A stretch of DNA of 64,000 nt, from contig JAHRHY010000016.1 in NCBI GenBank assembly GCA_019671135.1, positions 802,501-866,500 on the forward strand, written 5' to 3'. This DNA is from Linnemannia hyalina (lineage: Eukaryota > Mortierellomycota > Mortierellomycetes > Mortierellales > Mortierellaceae). The notes beneath the pieces were generated by a model. The model made no database searches. It saw nothing but the letters and a program-made list of their open reading frames with translations, and had not been told where the DNA came from. Shown here piece by piece: positions 3,677-33,300 of the stretch. A program made the position numbers and the translations under genes. How positions within the stretch are numbered: position 1 is the stretch's first letter; every line of letters starts with the position of its first letter.

Positions 3677-5882
3677 TTAGCGACATGTACTTGGGCAACA
3701 ACAACAACGATCAATAAGTGCAAAAAAGAAATCCAAAAGAACCAATTGACCACATTGACAGGACTACGTGGCAAAAAAAAAAAAAAAACTTACCCTGACT
3801 TGATAGTTGCCGGCTTTGGTCATATATCGTACCCACTTGACAGACTGATAGTTGTTCTTCTCAAAGACCTTCAAAAACCGAACCAGCAGTCCTGAAGATG
3901 TGAACATGAGTACTTGAAAGTCCATCGAGATCGGGGGTCGCGACCACGCCTTCTTGTGCGTCATTGCCGTCAAGTTGGCCTCGGCCGTCAGCGTAAACTC
4001 AGACTGTCCCTGGAAGCGTGGAATCCTAGGATCGATTCAAAAGAAATGGATTAACAATGGTAAATAGTCATTGTGCGATCACCAGCTGTACGTACGAAAT
4101 AAATAGCAATCAAACGAGCAAGATGAAGACTGACTACGACAGTAAGACATGATGTAGCGCCAAAATACTTACTTCCAGATAATAGAATTCTCTGCTGGTA
4201 CGTATTTGGCCTTGCCTGACGTGGCCGTGCATGTAACTCCTGCAGTGTTGAGTGGTGTTGGGATATTGAGCACCACGTTGTTGGCGTACAGTTTGGGCGA
4301 AAAGTTGGCCTTCACCAAGATCCTGTATTCGATCTTGGACTTTCCAATCTCAGTGACAACGGGATGGACCTTGAATGGGAGGTTGATATTGTCCGATGTC
4401 CGGTACCTGTTTTTTTTCCACACAAAGGGTGTCAGTTTTCCTTGAGACATCCTCCAAGGGTCACGAAAACGCGTGCTCCAAGAGTTATCGTGCATATTCC
4501 ATAAATGAGAACGAGAGTGAAACAACAGTATTGTACGCCACTAGAAGTACCTCATGAGCTCAAACTCGCCATCGGGAGGGATAAAGCTGATAGTGCGATC
4601 GCTGTCGAATTTTCCGAGTTTGACGCATTGGTGGAACTGGCAATCGTCAATCTCGACAGTGTTGGATGTTTTCCTATCGATGTAAGCGAGACAGTGGGGG
4701 TGCATAATAACATATGTGGTTGTTTAGCAATGCGTGAAATGTCCCTTTGGAAATAGTCGCTTTTAGTTAACTGAGGAAACAATGCAAGAGATGGCCGCTG
4801 CCAATCATCCGGTAATCGTTGCATGTACCTGCGGTTGGAAGGATCCTTCTCCAGGAGCACCTTGTCGTTCAGTCCAAACTTGCATTCGGGTGTTCCTGAG
4901 AGATAGGCTCGCATCATGATCTGTCCTGCGACGTCTGCCCTGAGAACATTTCCTTGAGCACTGAGGAGCAAATTAACAGACTCGATGACATCGATAAAGG
5001 CCTCGTTCTTCCTGTACTTGACGTCGCTCCTTCTCCAGGATGTTGCTCCTGTTGCCTGGATGGTGATCTTGGCCGAATCCTCCATGACCGCCCGTTCGGA
5101 CTTTACGGACTCGGTGGTGATGTACATCTTGAGCGTGTCTGCCTCGCTGTTTTGCGGGTATCCAAAGTCCAACACCTCTACAAAAGCGAGAGAGAGAGAG
5201 AGCGAGTTGAAGGGTCCGATCTTAATACAGCGGCTTTTTTTTTTTTTTTTTTTTTTTTTTTTGGCCAGTTGCTTTGGAGAAGGTTGTGACACAAAATTAA
5301 GAGCATCCAGACAAATTCAAAAAGACGAATAATGTGTAAAAATAACAAAGTGGAGGAGCAAGAGAGAGGTAAGCCAGAAAAACGGGAGAAAAAAGAAAAA
5401 GGGCAAAGTTGTTTGACATACCATCGAGCAGCTCGTAGATGAGGACAAAGTTGGCCTTGACAGCCTCCTCGTCAAACTTGCCAAAGTACGAGCGACCGAC
5501 GTTGATGACCCGATAGCAGAATTCAAAGATCAGGGCGGCATTGGCGTTCCACTTTGTGAGGGCGACGATATAGAGATTCTCGTGGCGGACGTGGAAGAAT
5601 GAGGTCGAACCCAAGGTGATGATGGGTGAGCGCACGTCCGTGTTGGATATGACCTGGATACGGAAGATGTCTGCAATCGAGCGCCTAATAGTAGACAGGG
5701 GTGTGCCAGCCAACAAGGTGTGTTAGGGAAAACGAGAGAAGGATTGCCAACAAAAAAGAAGCTGGTAGCCAAGCACGGACAGAGGCAGGTTGACTGGGAT
5801 GTGCTTACTTGAGATCCTGGCGGTAGAGGCGTGAGATGAGGACCTCACCCTTCTGGTTATAGATGAAGAAGGCGCTAATCAT
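3609..5882 (-). CDS. APM4: AP-2 complex subunit mu (clathrin adaptor medium chain)
   Basis: The medium chain of the AP-2 adaptor binds tyrosine-based cargo signals at the plasma membrane during clathrin-mediated endocytosis. Exons are 5882-5809, 5684-5422, 5177-4829, 4673-4551, 4406-4173, 4025-3794 and 3614-3609; the frame closes at 426 residues, the usual family length. The N-terminus ([21 protein letters not shown]) is the AP-2 rather than AP-1 form. A longin-like domain occupies about residues 1-140 and the mu-homology domain about 165-426, with conserved stretches such as [12 protein letters not shown] and [14 protein letters not shown]. The seventh exon is inferred: without splicing the frame runs from YQVR into a poly-T tract coding for phenylalanines. 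A CTAAC branch site, an 18-unit CT repeat and the next AG lead to Phe-stop. An AATAAA signal follows 21 bases later. Confidence 0.92.
3637..3672 (+). repeat. (GA)18 microsatellite
   Basis: Eighteen perfect GA units. On the minus strand this is a (CT) tract lying between a CTAAC branch-point candidate and the proposed last 3' splice site of AP-2 mu. Confidence 0.95.
5235..5262 (+). repeat. 28-base homopolymer (T on plus strand) in AP-2 mu intron 2
   Basis: A 28-base T run lies inside the intron between exons 2 and 3 of the minus-strand AP-2 mu gene (poly-A in the transcript). Confidence 0.9.
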
Positions 5883-6789
5883 CCTTTGTTGAGGAAGGAG
5901 AGGGAAGGATGTGCAATTGATGAAGTAGGGATGGGACCTATTGGGAGATGGCGTGCCAGTTTTGCTTGTACGAGCAAAGAGGAGAGGGAGACGGTGCTGA
6001 GGATTGAGAGAGATGCGATGCGATGAGTCGATTGGAGAAGGAAGAGTGGGAGAGAAAGAGAGAGAGAGGGAGAGGGAAAGAGGGAAAGAGGAAAGAGGGA
6101 CAGTGGGAGTGCGAAGAAAAGATGAGAGGATGATGAGAGGACAAGAAAGGGGGTGGATGTAGAGAGAGAGAGAGAGAGAGAGGGAGTGATAAAACACATT
6201 TTTATTTCAACTCTTTAGGCCAGGGACGGTTAACGACCGAGTGTCGCAGTAGAGACGTGCATTAAGTTCTGACCTATTGCTCGACCACCCATTGTACCAA
6301 TGTGTGGGAGTTGTACGTGAACAATTCGATAATTTCTTGTCCATCTTCTTTTCCATGTAACTCTCCTTGCCATCTCCATCCTCCACTTTTCATGTTAATG
6401 ACCGGGAATGGCAAACACAGAAACAGCCGCTAGGAGAGGTGTTTGACTGCAGTCTGAGAGAAATGAGCTCGCTGAATAACACCCCGGTGGCAAAAAAACC
6501 AGATGACTAATTCACGCAAATCATATTCCCATGCCAATGACGAGGAGGTGCAACTGAGCAAAAAGAACACGCTGGTTGAATAGAGGAAGTTATGCTGAAT
6601 AAAACCTCAAGAAAAAGAGGGCCAAATTGCAGGGTGATATCGATGTAAATGGCCGTATCTCGACGAAGAAAAGAGGGATCGAGAAGCGGATCGCAAGAGC
6701 TACACGGGAATGATAACGTTTTCAATCAAGTTTTTCAGGTACAAATATTCTAACTATGGGTGGTCGGGCAATAGAAACGACATGGCACA
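5883..6789. other. intergenic: AP-2 mu promoter and derlin 3' region
   Basis: No gene is seen. The AP-2 mu side holds a purine-rich tract (pyrimidine-rich in the sense of the gene) with an (AG)12 microsatellite near 6158-6182, resembling the pyrimidine-rich leaders of other genes here. The rest is unique sequence with only short open frames. Confidence 0.6.
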
Positions 6790-7364
6790 TCAGCCAAGGC
6801 GGTTGCCAGAGCCCCAGCGGTGGCCTGCCGTGTTCTCCGTTGCCGTGCCGCCCTGCTGTCCTGTCCGGAACACGTTCGCCGTGTTTCCTTCCCCTGTGAA
6901 TCCTGCCCCGGCAACCTCCTGCGCAGGCAGCACTCTGTACAGCAGCCTTGGCGTAGGGATTAGCCTCGGCCCGCCCATGGCTGGATACACAGAGTCAAGA
7001 AAGTAGTACACATGGGCCGATGCTATCCCAATCAGCATCTCCCAGGGGATCGCCGCACCCTGCATCACCGCATTGTACGCCACCAGCACCCATGGGAAAT
7101 ACACCGCCTACATCATATAAATCGTATAAATTTACAAAAACAGTTTGTTAGCAATCTCTTCTGTCTTTTCTTCCTGCTTCTTCTTTTATCGTCTTCTTCT
7201 CCTTCTTCCACTCCTTCTCGCATCGATTTACCTTGAACTGGATACCAAACATGAAAGAGACTATCCTGTCAGAGTTTGCCTGCGACCAGAGATAGATCAC
7301 TGAGAGCAGCAGCGACTGGAACAAGAACGCAATCCTCATGTAGTGCGCAACGATCTATTAGTCG

Positions 7365-26642: not shown

Positions 26643-26958
26643 GGCGAGCGAGGGCAACCAAACGATGGTATGCTGTAAGTATGTATGAGTGTATGTATAC
26701 TCCTGCGGTGCGCCCTGGTCTGTTGTTCCTGTCTGTGTGAGCGTATGTATGCGTATGTGTGTGCGTATGTGCAGCAAGTGTTGTATGTTGGATCGAAGGA
26801 GATGCGGGATGGAGAGACCGAAAAGAGAGAGCGAGATAAAAAACAAAAGGTTTGTTGACCACACACCAAGGAAAATAAGAGTTTAACGTGACTGACTCGT
26901 CACGGGATGAGCGCGCAAAATTATTCTTGTGATACAAAGTCGAACCAAAAAAGCCTAA
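26643..26958. other. BYE1 upstream region
   Basis: No gene is seen. A degenerate TATG/TGTG microsatellite (about 26675-26775) lies directly upstream of BYE1. This is followed by AT-rich sequence up to a broken ORF on the minus strand. Confidence 0.5.
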
Positions 26959-27138
26959 TCAACTACGCGAAGGCTTGGCATTCTTTTTAAGATACTGAAA
27001 CCCCATAGCGACAGACTCCAAAAATCGCCTGACATTCTTTCTTTCGGCAACCACTTCCCAAATATCTCCTTCTCCAACTCCACTTGACTTCAACAAGGTG
27101 ACCAGCATTAGTTTGGGAGTATGTGTAGCTAGCCTGAG
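26959..27138 (-). pseudogene. orphan coding remnant, 59-codon terminal exon-like ORF
   Basis: On the minus strand, a GATCAG followed by an open frame gives 59 residues ending in TGA. The text reads like a normal globular protein C-terminus, with segments KLMLVTLLKSSGVGEGD, RRFLESVAMGFQYLKKN and PSRS. No family is recognised. Upstream on the same strand (27139-27620) more protein-like pieces occur, for example SYETILRGAITQIIQ, LTAFCESCASTGWDVV and LLTQKCECVVYIVIGN, but in different frames and broken by stops. I infer a decayed gene, probably 500-700 bases long before loss. The same bases can also be read open in a second frame, so coding potential is uncertain. Confidence 0.3.
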
Positions 27139-27836
27139 CTGATCATCTCAAAAACGACGACATGTCCATGAACCTACCGAGCATAAACGCGTCTAACCTG
27201 ACTGACCTTGAATTATCTGTGTAATAGCTCCTCGGAGAATTGTTTCATACGACGACGACGACTAAGACTTTTTGTCAAATGCTTGAGCCCCACTCGACCG
27301 CACCACATCCCACCCGGTACTCGCGCAACTTTCACAAAATGCCGTCAATATTGCAGACAGGAAACCTATTACCAATGACGATATAAACCACGCACTCGCA
27401 TTTTTGCGTCAGCAGGACCTTGTTGTCGATCTCAACCCCGCACCACCAATTACAATACACATCCTCTCAATGCACAACAATCGGCACACGCCCCTACATT
27501 TATAATCAAAATACGGCTCTCCGACAGCCCCAGTTCTGTCATGGGACCAGTAGGATCGATCTGCTATGACAGCTGAGCTCTATCCTCAACAGCTCGATAG
27601 TGCTCTTTTCCTCTAGAAGGATACCCCCTCTCCTTTATTCAGCCCAACACTCAGCACTGCATTACATTACCATATGCAATTGACTGAATCTGCGGTATTT
27701 CCCACTTTCACGCACTTCGACTCAGTCGAGGAGCGCAGTTGGATACATCACCCACGACCATTATGGGCCACATGAAGAGCAATGGAGTATCAGTCACGTC
27801 CCTTCCCGTCCCCTCCAGCATGGAAATGTGCGTACA

Positions 27837-28041
27837 TGTAATAGCAACAGAAGAAGGATGACAGACAAGAGCAGGAGGCAGAAACGGATGGTGTTTATTG
27901 TACAGGGGAGCCAGGGTTTTATATGTGCTAGGCTATGGGCTCCAGGATGGTGGTGATGTGGTTAGATGGGGATGCAATTAGGTGATAATGTGGTTAGATG
28001 GGACAGTGGTTAGATGACGCTAATGATTTAGGGTCACAACA
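27837..28041 (-). mobile_element. LTR-like sequence, possible solo LTR
   Basis: Read on the minus strand, about 205 bases start TGTTGTGACC and end GCTATTACA. Inside lie ATATAAAA and, about 25 bases further, an AATAAA (27890-27928 on plus), the promoter/polyA spacing typical of an LTR R region. A 13-base unit, GTGGTTAGATGGG on the plus strand, occurs at 27958-27970 and 27990-28002, with a shorter copy at 28006-28016. No partner LTR, primer-binding site or target-site duplication could be matched by eye, so the element type and exact ends are inference. Broken coding pieces on the same strand downstream may or may not belong to it. Confidence 0.35.
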
Positions 28042-28116
28042 GACTATGATACTGTGACAGTATATCCTTTCGACTTGTCCATCACCACAAAAACCCTTGA
28101 CAGTGCCCCTTCAACA

Positions 28117-30178
28117 ATGCCTACAACGGCCACCGTCGTTCCCGCCTCCACATCGTCCTCTTCAATCGACCCACATGACGCAACTCCAACGACCCATTCA
28201 AGACGACAATTGCAGTCACGCATTCAAGCGCTTATGGTATGTAGCGCAATACTTGGATGGTTGAGATGGATGAGATACCTTTATATACTGAGATATACAG
28301 TCGCCTTTGATAAGAGTGGTCAAGAGCACGAAGGACGCCGCCCACAACAAGCGAGTATCAAGCGACCAGACTCACGTAGATATGTTGGAGACAGCCAGGA
28401 TAGAATTGAAAAGGATAGAGACAGACAAGGGCAGCGCACCAAGAATGGGTCTGGAAGCTACCGCTCACATTCTGTGCAAGCAATTCAATATCGACAATTC
28501 AAAGGACCTGAGCAGAGAGTACCTTGTCGGTTTCACACAAGAAGGTACGCCAAATGTACTAGCATTAATATTGTGGAACAGGGTGTCAAGGAGGTTATGG
28601 ATGTGAACTGCGACAACTTCTGGGCGTAGCGAGTTTGTAGGTCCGTGCTCCTAGCAAGGACTTTGAAATATCGCTTAATGGACTATTACAAGAGATTGAG
28701 ATAGAGGATGTGTAGCTTGAAGAGGATTGTGTGGGCTTGCCAGGTGACGAGAGGTGTCGGTGACTGTCCCCACAAGATGGAGTACTCTCGTATCTTTAAA
28801 CGCCCGACTTGATGTGTTGGCGGGTAAATTATCAAATATTGACCATTTATGCACGTTCAATTTTCTGTCGAATCCTTTACAGCTCATGTAATTGCGATAT
28901 TCTTTACCTTGATCATAGATTTGGAAGACAACGAGAAGCCGACCTTTCCGTCGTCATTATTCTCTCCTTCCTCGGACAATATTTCGTCGTCATCCACTTT
29001 TTCGGGCCAGAAGGCTTCATCTTCTGTACCAGACATGGATCTTGCAGCGCTAAAAATTCCAATGGCGAATGTCATCTCTGCAAGACAAGTCGAACTGGTC
29101 AGCGGAATTCGGTGGAAAGCGAGGAAGAGGGAGAGGCGCTTGCGAGCCCCTGAGAAAGCAGATTTCCGACAAGCTCGCATGGATCTCGTCAAGACCAGCC
29201 TTCACCTCTCACAGGGCATCGAAGAGATTGGCCAGGCACAAATGATTCGGCGCCAGGTTCGCGGTCCATTGCGTAAGTTTGAGAACGCACCTCCGGCACA
29301 AAAGGACAACCACTGCGTTGACACACAGACTTCAAGGGCATGGGCCGCCATGGCTGCTGATGAGCATAAACGTATCAAGGACAATACCTCGGGTAAGTTA
29401 AAATCCACTACTTGATATAAACACAAAAAAAAGTTCACGGGTGGTCAGATCCTATCACTTGATATACTCAATCTTCTATAGATCCATGACCATCTTCTGC
29501 AATATCAGGTCTCCTCCAGAGCCCTCTGCCATGCACCCACAGCCGAACACCGGCACTTGTTCGAAAGTCACCGCACCCAGGACAACCACACCATCATCCT
29601 CAGGACCGAGCCAACAAGTCGACACAAGGGAAGGCCCCTGCGAGTCCTGCCACCAGCATCATCTTGCAATCGTCGGACCAGACGGTCTCACGTATCCATC
29701 ATCATGTACGCATCATGCATCACCATATATGATGCTGCTATTTGTTGGCACCGCAGGGATCAGGATCAACTCCAGAATCAAAGGGCATCTGAAGTATAGA
29801 GGAAAGTGTGTGGTCGAACAACACTCTCGAGCGGGCGCGGTCTTGATGGTTGATGAAAACATGACCTCCAAGTTGTGTATGTTCTGCTTTCTGGAGGTAT
29901 GGTTAGCGCTCGCGACTGTCGATGGCAAGTCTGTCAAGGTTTATGGAGCAGTGGAATGTGTGAACCCTTCCTGTGACTCATTCAAGGCTGGATACAGCAA
30001 GCGAGCGCGCGACTCAAACGCCAGTGTCAGCATTGCATTATCGAGATTCTGCCAACTATCGAAAAACCTTGCGACCCCAGGTCGCCAAATCACCACCAAC
30101 CAGCTCGAGTTCTGGTCCCACTCTCGTTCCGATGACTTCCATAGGAAGCTCAAGCGGACCGCAGCTTGCTCCGATTAA
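28117..30178 (+). pseudogene. degraded Fanzor-like (eukaryotic TnpB) nuclease gene
   Basis: The last exon region (about 29750-30060, one frame) carries the C-terminal signature of TnpB/Fanzor proteins. It has a glutamate in VDENMTSKLCMFC (the RuvC-II Glu followed by the first Cys pair of the zinc ribbon), then VECVNPSC (second pair) and RARDSNASVSIAL (RuvC-III Asp, the RDxNAS motif). Upstream pieces fit an N-terminal region: an ATG at 28117 opening a Thr/Ser-rich leader, a plausible intron (28236-28299), then SPLIRVVKSTKDAAHNKRV through LVGFTQE. A 188-codon open stretch follows at 28849-29415 with many Arg/Lys/Glu. Between these blocks the frame shifts and stops occur (about 28629-28850 and 29470-29690). 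The RuvC-I Asp motif was not found in any frame, so the gene is judged inactive. Fanzors are RNA-guided nucleases carried by transposons in fungi and protists. Confidence 0.6.
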
Positions 30179-30227
30179 GATGAATTTTATTTCATGTTCT
30201 GCGTTCTTGAATTAAAAGCGTGCTTTT

Positions 30228-30245
30228 TGAGTTAATATTAACTCA
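30228..30245. repeat. perfect 18-bp palindrome downstream of the Fanzor-like remnant
   Basis: TGAGTTAATATTAACTCA is a perfect inverted repeat with no loop, 50 bases past the stop of the Fanzor-like ORF in an AT-rich stretch. It could be an element end, a dimeric protein site or chance. Confidence 0.7.
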
Positions 30246-30381
30246 TGGACTAATAATTTTGTCTGTCAATTCTGGATGAACTAGAGTAATAATAAAAGAC
30301 AATAATTAAAGTTTCCATTCTTCATCATCTTCCAACTCCCTTCCTTCCTCCCCAGCTTTCCATTCGCACCCTCTTCCCTCC

Positions 30382-33300
30382 ATGGCCCCACAACATGTCA
30401 CAACCATCCTCCTCGCAGAGTTCGACATCGACCAGGGCTCAGTCTTGACCCACCAGTACCCAGCCAACATCACCTCCGACAACCAGTAAAGCCATCCCTC
30501 CATGCTGAAACAAAAAAACACGAACGGCCTTCCTACCACCCTTTGACCATTCGGGGCAAACAAACAACAATTAACGCTATTGCCATTGTGGCCATTATGT
30601 CTTCTACCACAGTGTACTAGCCGAACTCATGTTGCCTGACGGTGCCCATCTCAGGCCCGCTGACTGGACCATCTTTTTCCTCAACCGGGCCAAGCCTGCA
30701 CCTTGGAACGGCAATACCGTCGCTGCAGACAATGGCGAAAACCCTCTTCTCTATGTCCTTAATTTGGTCCGCACCAACCATGATGCATCTATCCGAAGGT
30801 ATCAAACACCCCTCCAACGCATCTAATGATTGGTCTCACACTCAACATTATTTATGAACGAATTCTCAATTTTCTCACAACCACATCTTATAAATTAAAC
30901 AAAAAAAACATGCTAGAGGTGCAGCTGTCAAAGCCATGGCGATCTGTACAACTCACCAATATCTTCATGTCTACAAGGTACGCGCTTCTCGTTCGTTTTC
31001 TTCTTATTTGCCCAGTCTCTTCCTCCCTGACCATTCTTAACTATTGGCACCCATGCCACCTACACTTTCATTAGCCTGTACTTCTCCTCGCCCTCGAGAA
31101 CTACTTCAAAAACCCTTCGATTGAGGTTTTAAAGACCCTCTACGAATCCGTCAACTCAATGCAACTCGATCCCCCAGAACTTTCACCCTACGAGCGCATG
31201 ATCCTCAGATCTTCCGACAATAAGGAGCTTTTTATTGAAAAGTTTGAAGCGGCAGGAGGCAGTGAGGATGTACCGGCCAAGGTCGATGTTGCACATGGAC
31301 TTGGGATTGTTGTTGGACAGACACCATTAAAGGGCAAGGACGGAGGGGCGCCAGCAGCAGCTATGGCTAGGAACAGGGATTGTCAATTCTACGAAACCAA
31401 GGTCGTCTACGATGGAATCAAGATCCCTATCAGAGTGCCTTTGAGCATCAACCCAGAAGAAGTCGGAGAGGTATGACGGATTGCTGTCTTATATGCCATA
31501 CTCTGCGTATAATGATGTGTTTGTCCATACTAACAATAATACTGATACTTTGTGCATTATCTATAATTATAGTTTTCGCTTATCAAACTTATCACGACCT
31601 TCAGCCCATCATCGCCCTCGCCCAATCCTCACCCTTTTCACCCACATCTGGACTCGAACGGCTCCAACACTCACCCCATCATGCTGCTGATGAATGCCCT
31701 CTTGACAGGCAAACGGGTTATTTTTCTCGGGAACGGCCATCCTGCTGGTGACGTTGCCAACTTTGTACTTGCCGCATGCGCACTGGGAAGTGGCTCTGGC
31801 GGCGTCCTGCGTGGCTTCCCAGAGCGTGCATACCCATATACAAACCTGGCCGGTATCGACCATCTCTTGACATGGTACAGTGACGAAGAAACGTTACCGC
31901 GATAGGAATCTTAACCGATGTAACAACTATTATCACTAAGCGATCACTAACCCTTGCATTAACCAACTTTTTCAAAATCATAGCAAAGGGTTCATCGCAG
32001 GAGTGACCAACCAGCTTTTTGAGGACAGAACGGCTTGGTGGGATGTTCTCTGCAATATTGACACAGGAAAGATTACCGTCAGCAAAGACATCTCCCCCAT
32101 CGCATTTTCGTCGTCCCACTCCGGACATTATGATGATACACGAGCAACTCCTATGTTCAGCACCGGAGCAACAACTCAGTCTAGCAGCAAGCACGACAAT
32201 GGCGATAACGATTTTATGGCAGACGTAAAGGGCACCATTACCATCCTTTTTGATGTTATTTCGACCTTTAGAATTTGGTTATTTCAACCAGTCTGATCAT
32301 TTACTCACGCTACTCCACTTTTACGTCGACCCTTGACAATTGTAGATTCTCAGCGCAATTCAAGCACACTATGGAGAAATGGTGATTCGCGCCAGGTTTC
32401 AAGAGTATGTCACCCGCTTTGTTCAACTAGCCTCTCAGTACGAAGATCAGACCTATGGCCAGACAACCATCGGCATCAACCGTATCAACACTCCCGAGTC
32501 CAGCAAGTATATGGGCACTGGTTTGGTCTTTTCCGACGAAAGCTCTAGATTGAAGGAGGTAGCAGCGAACGCTTCAAGAATTGAAGGCTGGCGCGCTACA
32601 ACCAGTTACAAATATCTGCAAGAGGTAAGACATGACATATTCATGGTTGGCTTTCTTGCGACGCAGATGAGCTAAGGGTGCCTCTAAATTGAACCATATT
32701 TTTTTTATATAACAATCTTTCTGTTCTTTTTCATCCATCAAAGGACCACAAAGAATGGCTGACGACAAGGTCAATTAAATGCATGGACGTGAAAAGAGTT
32801 ATCTCATTGTTAAGGCTATCAAGATCCTTAACATCACAAGATGTATCAACCCTTTACAAAGGATTTCTGCAAAGCATTGTAACGGATGAACAAATTATCG
32901 AGGCAAGTCCCCTGGAAAAAGTTTGACGCTGGGACGGAAATGTTGTGAAACTGGGTGGGGACCACCTGTTTTCTTTTTACATCACAAAAAATATTTACTG
33001 CCCCCCCCCCGTCCGTCACCCTTGCCCCCCAATAGTTTCTCTCCAGTCTGCCATTGTCACAAGGCGGCTTGTTCTGCGTGGCCTATGGGCTATTCCACCC
33101 CGTAGCAGGTGTAAGGCAGGATACTGTCGCGTTTTTTAATCGACTGGACCAACATCCCGTGAGTCATCCATCTGGTGTCTAATTAATGCCTTCGTAATTT
33201 CGTCCCTATTTTCTAAACCCAGGAACTCACACGCTAATGCCCCGCCATTTTTTTTTGTCTGTGCTAGACTGGACGCGTTTATATTCGATCGCTCAACCGA

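Follow-up and report, generated by a model that had tools for sequence, protein, structure and literature searches.

What is left of a putative RNA-guided nuclease gene that lacks one of its catalytic aspartates, and does the genome that carries it hold intact relatives? We addressed this question for a stretch of 64,000 nucleotides (the window) from the soil fungus Linnemannia hyalina (G000:C8:802501-866500; genome of 51.5 Mb in 50 contigs), in which the original prediction, made from the letters alone, placed a degraded Fanzor-like gene at 28117-30178. The copy in the window is a Fanzor element that is dead and has lost internal sequence; by itself it is an ordinary relic. Its living form is an element of ~6 kb, predicted to encode a very large Fanzor (1,628 amino acids by gene model). 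We are confident of this reading as a whole.

The frame at 29402-30178 contains, in this order, Asp-Glu-Asn-x-Thr-Ser, CxxC, CVNPSC and Arg-Asp; the Glu-x-x-Thr-Ser, CxxC, VECVNPSC and RDSNAS of the original prediction are thus all located where they had been claimed, in one frame. Between 29855 and 30013 the order of the Fanzor1 motif of Bao and Jurka is found (RuvC-II Glu, [TS][TS], Cys4 zinc finger, RD). An alignment of 11 rows shows no variation at the Glu, the Ser, the Arg, the second CxxC Cys or the first CVNPSC Cys, and almost none at the Thr, the remaining CxxC Cys and the Asp. The motif residues exceed chance, because the reading matches 26 other genomic places with E values of 1.6e-5 or better. 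The resulting 27 places (here and below, counts of genomic places are lower bounds) comprise the window itself, a 77% paralogue on contig C49, two copies at 51-53%, eight matches of equal score (53%) and 15 more distant ones.

A RuvC-I Asp upstream of RuvC-II is absent from the window copy, as had been noticed at the outset, and present in the relatives. About 2.9 kb of the C49 paralogue (bases 4403-7349) have no counterpart in the window, where the join is at 28746/28752. Both in this paralogue and in the young copies described below, the sequence GTDRG directly precedes the codons at which the window restarts (28754). The deletion therefore ends just beyond the RuvC-I motif and took the middle of the gene with it, which explains why the motif could not be seen. 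Lacking RuvC-I, the window copy would be unable to cut; with its right end and a recognizable left end still in place, it would at most be carried passively. The possibility that the gene is intact apart from introns was rejected, since RuvC-I has been deleted.

The element and its parts in the window are:
26880-30293, plus strand: remnant of the whole Fanzor element, defined by homology at both ends, each approximate (left ~26875-26890, right ~30293)
26921-26972, plus strand: conserved left-terminal region, 83% identical to bases 48-100 of the young element (blastn)
28117-28231, plus strand: probable first coding exon, open from ATG to a donor-like GTATGT
28300-28540, plus strand: probable second exon, within an open frame at 28292-28606, based mainly on DNA shared with the paralogue
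28746-28752, no strand: deletion junction, joining paralogue bases 4403 and 7349
28754-28823, plus strand: remainder of the exon after RuvC-I, ending at a donor-like GTAAAT
28996-29392, plus strand: exon linking RuvC-I and RuvC-II, from tblastn, open and ending at a donor-like GT
29519-30178, plus strand: last exon, with RuvC-II, zinc ribbon and RuvC-III, stop codon at 30176-30178, acceptor position approximate
29855-29857, plus strand: RuvC-II Glu, followed by Thr-Ser
29876-29974, plus strand: Cys4 zinc ribbon, with the CxxC Cys codons at 29876 and 29885 and CVNPSC at 29957-29974
30008-30013, plus strand: RD motif, with the RuvC-III Asp at 30011-30013

At its right end the remnant aligns with the young element (GATGAAATAGACAATAA) and with the C49 paralogue, and bases 48-100 of the young element, which define the left-terminal region, also match this paralogue (81%, blastn). 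The window and the C49 paralogue have DNA in common at 28060-28170 (82%) and 28188-28746 (75%), and 28349-28513 matches residues 243-297 of the protein of the young copies weakly (tblastn, E 0.69). Beyond the junction, 28754-28823 matches the protein P0004 (51.6% over 31 residues, E 0.009) and the young protein (39% over 41 residues, E 0.010), the latter from residue 1208, right behind GTDRGLVT. The linker exon matches the young protein from 29050 (36% over 115 residues, E 2.4e-17) and P0004 (33% over 136 residues, E 1.2e-15), and the last exon matches the young protein at 51% over 158 residues (E 6e-40; all tblastn). The 'shifted frames with stops' of the original prediction are therefore decay only in part: the segments 28117-28231, 28754-28823 and 28996-29392 are open and have donor-like ends, the last exon is open as well, and some of the shifts in frame are due to introns. 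Likewise, the extent of 28117-30178 lies inside the element, which is larger, at about 26.88-30.29 kb.

Comparison of the last exon with that of the C49 paralogue gives a ratio of nonsynonymous to synonymous divergence (dN/dS) of 0.16 (dS 0.80). Together with the open state of the 258-codon C-terminal frame, this value could indicate that the host has retained the frame as a nuclease-dead protein. We regard such domestication as very improbable, because dN/dS averages over a time when both lines were active elements (the loss itself is not dated) and the C49 paralogue has an in-frame stop of its own. The ratio rather suggests that the majority of the divergence accrued while the lineage was functional.

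Two further features were also observed. A gene with similarity to Afi1 (Arf3-docking) lies at 30310-30823 (34.8 and 47.4 bits, over the cut-off); it begins ~90 bases past the right end of the element, which places the remnant in the promoter region of that gene. A repeat at 27924-28059 recurs, differently placed, in the C49 paralogue locus (C49:134000-143999, reverse-strand bases 5609-5776) and is probably another small inserted element.

The assignment of the protein to the Fanzors, which are eukaryotic proteins related to CRISPR nucleases, was assessed by profile and structure searches. The best match in a profile search of the PDB is SpuFz1, a Fanzor1, and the top three matches of the structure search are Fanzors, followed by Cas12. 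The catalytic residues of SpuFz1 are given as D383, E541 and D606 in the accessible text of PMC11423790; three of the four SpuFz rows among the structure matches enclose E541 and D606, and the fourth encloses D606 only. Furthermore, an Asp-x-Gly is found at RuvC-I in the relatives, and RuvC-I and the catalytic residues keep a conserved order. Other results are less favourable to the assignment. The scores of all these matches are weak, and PF07282 reaches 10.7-13.1 bits on the window, below its cut-off of 26.3. Pfam finds no Fanzor domain in the 1,628-residue protein, P0001 or P0004; single-sequence searches of the PDB gave no support, and the combined profile A4 has one PDB match, to an unrelated protein. 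With NCBIfam, one of the 11 rows matches guided_TnpB (E 0.0019) and the window row matches an unrelated model (E 0.017). Taking the PDB profile, the structure matches and the RuvC-I of the relatives together, we infer Fanzor identity with moderate strength.

These scores also leave some room for another Cys-rich or RuvC-like mobile-element protein, the outcome named beforehand as the one that would contradict a Fanzor. No row with bits shown reaches a Pfam cut-off, for 2 of the 11 rows other zinc families score about as low as PF07282, and the window has a weak Kazal match. We consider a non-Fanzor family improbable, given that the best PDB profile match and the top structure matches are Fanzor1 and then Cas12, with the catalytic residues and RuvC-I kept in order; the Kazal inhibitor itself was rejected, at 14.6 bits and below cut-off. 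A VPLDASG stretch of the young protein, considered as RuvC-I, was dropped as well, the DPG of the paralogues aligning with GTDRG instead. The RuvC-I Asp of the young protein lies ~305 residues before the TS, outside the spacing of 125-275 that the available portion of Bao and Jurka (PMC3627910) gives for Fanzor1.

With the Fanzor assignment retained, the remnant can be compared with characterized proteins. The RuvC-II Glu, the Cys4 ribbon and the RuvC-III Asp align in register with SpuFz1 (PDB 8gkh) and PpFz1 (PDB 9cf0), and the C-x-N-P-x-C of the second knuckle is also found in SpuFz1. In contrast to both, the window copy has no RuvC-I and stays under the Pfam cut-off, and RuvC-I of the young family reads Asp-Arg-Gly. 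The chains of SpuFz1 and PpFz1 comprise 1,032 and 1,259 residues (MBP tag included), whereas the relatives are annotated at 1,212-1,497 and reach 1,628 by model. L. hyalina also has canonical Fanzors. PF07282 detects at least 91 genomic places, 90 of them above cut-off, and by coordinates none coincides with the window or with the 27 places of its family. The canonical proteins (alignment A2, seven loci) share N-E-x-x-T-S-x-x-C-x-x-C, a second Cys pair and RD with the remnant family, but have no loci in common with it and a shorter zinc ribbon. Many PF07282 places form sets of equal score; twelve share one match of 36.2 bits (E 3.1e-7) with an internal TAG, which may reflect an intron or a dead copy common to the twelve.

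The existence of intact relatives, considered possible in the original prediction, was supported: ten copies of one related element are present. Eight places have both the left and the right end of this element, separated by 10.11-10.22 kb. Over long aligned pieces of three whole copies and ~5.8 kb of another, these young copies are 99.3-99.9% identical. Among the eight, the left flanks fall into seven distinct sequences, and so do the right flanks. Eight near-identical relatives with distinct flanks imply that the family lies in a eukaryotic mobile element, of which the window copy keeps homologous ends. A hand-spliced gene model reads without interruption through 1,628 residues in two of the four copies examined; one of the others is frameshifted and one has an early stop. 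The predicted protein carries RuvC-I (GTDRG), RuvC-II, zinc ribbon and RuvC-III in that order. The flanks are not entirely independent: the C7 and C12 left flanks and the C16 and C23 right flanks share 1.2-1.5 kb on one side only (98.4 and 100% identical). C7 and C16 lie at most 5 kb from the contig start, and the copies may thus have undergone subtelomeric exchange.

Two older copies (~6.2 kb on C20 and ~6.8 kb on C49) join element base 272 straight to base 4326 and represent the empty site, which a 4-kb insert occupies in the eight 10-kb copies. The left part of the insert is found at 11 further places, and its right part at 10 further places and as a 43-base scrap. On the opposite strand the insert encodes NDC10_II and GCR1_C (40.8 and 38.3 bits, over cut-off), domains that we take to mark Cryptons; hence it presumably encodes a Crypton recombinase. 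As judged from this arrangement, the eight 10-kb copies are composites, in which a 4-kb Crypton is nested in the Fanzor element. In the recombinase (L047 840-3721, minus strand), NDC10_II is divided between two long frames that overlap, which points to an intron between them. The C20 copy has an extra Crypton beside it, whose insertion point coincides precisely with the right end of the Fanzor element.

How these elements move is suggested by their ends. The right end reads TTTTGGATGAAATAGAC-AATAA and the inverted left end TTTTGCGTGAAATCCAC-TATATTATT. Both termini of the Fanzor element carry a motif, TTTTnnnTGAAAnnnnC, that also adjoins the left end of 5 of the 11 solo Cryptons (7 if TGAAA or AGAAA is allowed), and one of those five flanks is itself a Fanzor end. 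In all 10 copies whose left end can be read, and in a remnant on C14, the hexamer that precedes this end conforms to NRATRM (the C33 end is unreadable). This remnant (C14:800767-800800) carries the first 34 bases of the Fanzor element followed by different sequence, which suggests either a truncated copy or a different element that shares this left end. TTTTnnnTGAAAnnnnC is absent from both strands of the 64-kb window, and also from the downstream regions of 17 loci matching the window frame (same strand, the window's included) and of 8 PF07282 loci; other Fanzor groups thus lack the motif, and the decayed end in the window lacks its strict form too. Fanzor ends found no support as a general Crypton target: one of the 11 solo Crypton flanks holds this Fanzor family and none the A2 type.

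The arms around the AT core fit a tyrosine recombinase site, and on the strength of the shared end sequences we give about even chances to a Crypton-type tyrosine recombinase moving the Fanzor elements. Alternatively, the element could be a Fanzor carrier moved in trans by a DDE transposase through imperfect terminal inverted repeats (TIRs), with the Crypton as a chance passenger. The ends, which read AATTTTGGATGAAATAGAC and, inverted, AATTTTGCGTGAAATCCAC, do form a short inverted repeat, and MuDr-, Mariner- and other TIR-type carriers of Fanzor1 are described in the available text of Bao and Jurka (PMC3627910). We consider this alternative rather unlikely, because inspection by eye of the eight composites showed no target-site duplication other than the AT core, the six bases next to the left end are variable apart from a fixed AT, the pattern expected from recombinase crossover, and the same motif flanks several solo Cryptons.

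An association of Cryptons with Fanzor1 is already in print. MCi-2A of Mucor circinelloides is a Fanzor1 element with a partial Crypton, the class of which is called uncertain in the relevant passage of Bao and Jurka (2013, PMC3627910), and part of a 2023 paper (PMC10711439) places Crypton recombinases among the partners of Fanzor1. As far as that passage describes MCi-2A, it resembles the composites in being a multi-copy fungal Fanzor1 element whose 5' part holds sequence of a Crypton recombinase and whose 3' part is near-identical, and differs in its 11-12-bp target-site duplications and truncated recombinase, whereas no such duplication was seen in the Linnemannia elements, and their Crypton has both domains and solo copies. 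With other Cryptons the insert of the relatives shares NDC10_II and GCR1_C above cut-off; unlike them, it is nested in a Fanzor element and apparently spread with it via the outer Fanzor ends. No literature on Fanzor or TnpB with Mortierella was found among open-access papers, Linnemannia not having been combined with Fanzor, and papers on Crypton with Mortierella were unrelated, by title only.

By analogy with the family, a guide RNA derived from the 3' end of the element would direct the full-length protein to cut the DNA of the empty site, and repair would copy the element back in. The Crypton recombinase would act in cis on the composites and in trans on elements that lack a Crypton. Folding of 243 nucleotides at the 3' end of one young copy was no better than that of shuffles (z -0.89). 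Part of the discussion in Saito 2023 (PMC10432273) concerns Fanzors that help transposons and 'ghost' loci with RNA and without protein, and the window remnant could be such a locus. More tentatively, and with somewhat less conviction than we attach to the recombinase, we propose that Linnemannia has a distinct clade of very large Fanzors (~1,200-1,600 residues), unlisted by PF07282, which would use tyrosine-recombinase attachment sites common to Crypton targets; insertion of a Crypton would have given a self-contained composite that recently spread as a unit.

The window copy is ordinary; what deserves further attention is its young composite relatives. The family shows that counts of Fanzors based on PF07282 only can miss large divergent groups. 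The young copies are recent and near-identical, their ends are exactly defined, at least two of them are open, and the empty site is on record; they offer a way to test how Fanzors help tyrosine-recombinase transposons to spread.
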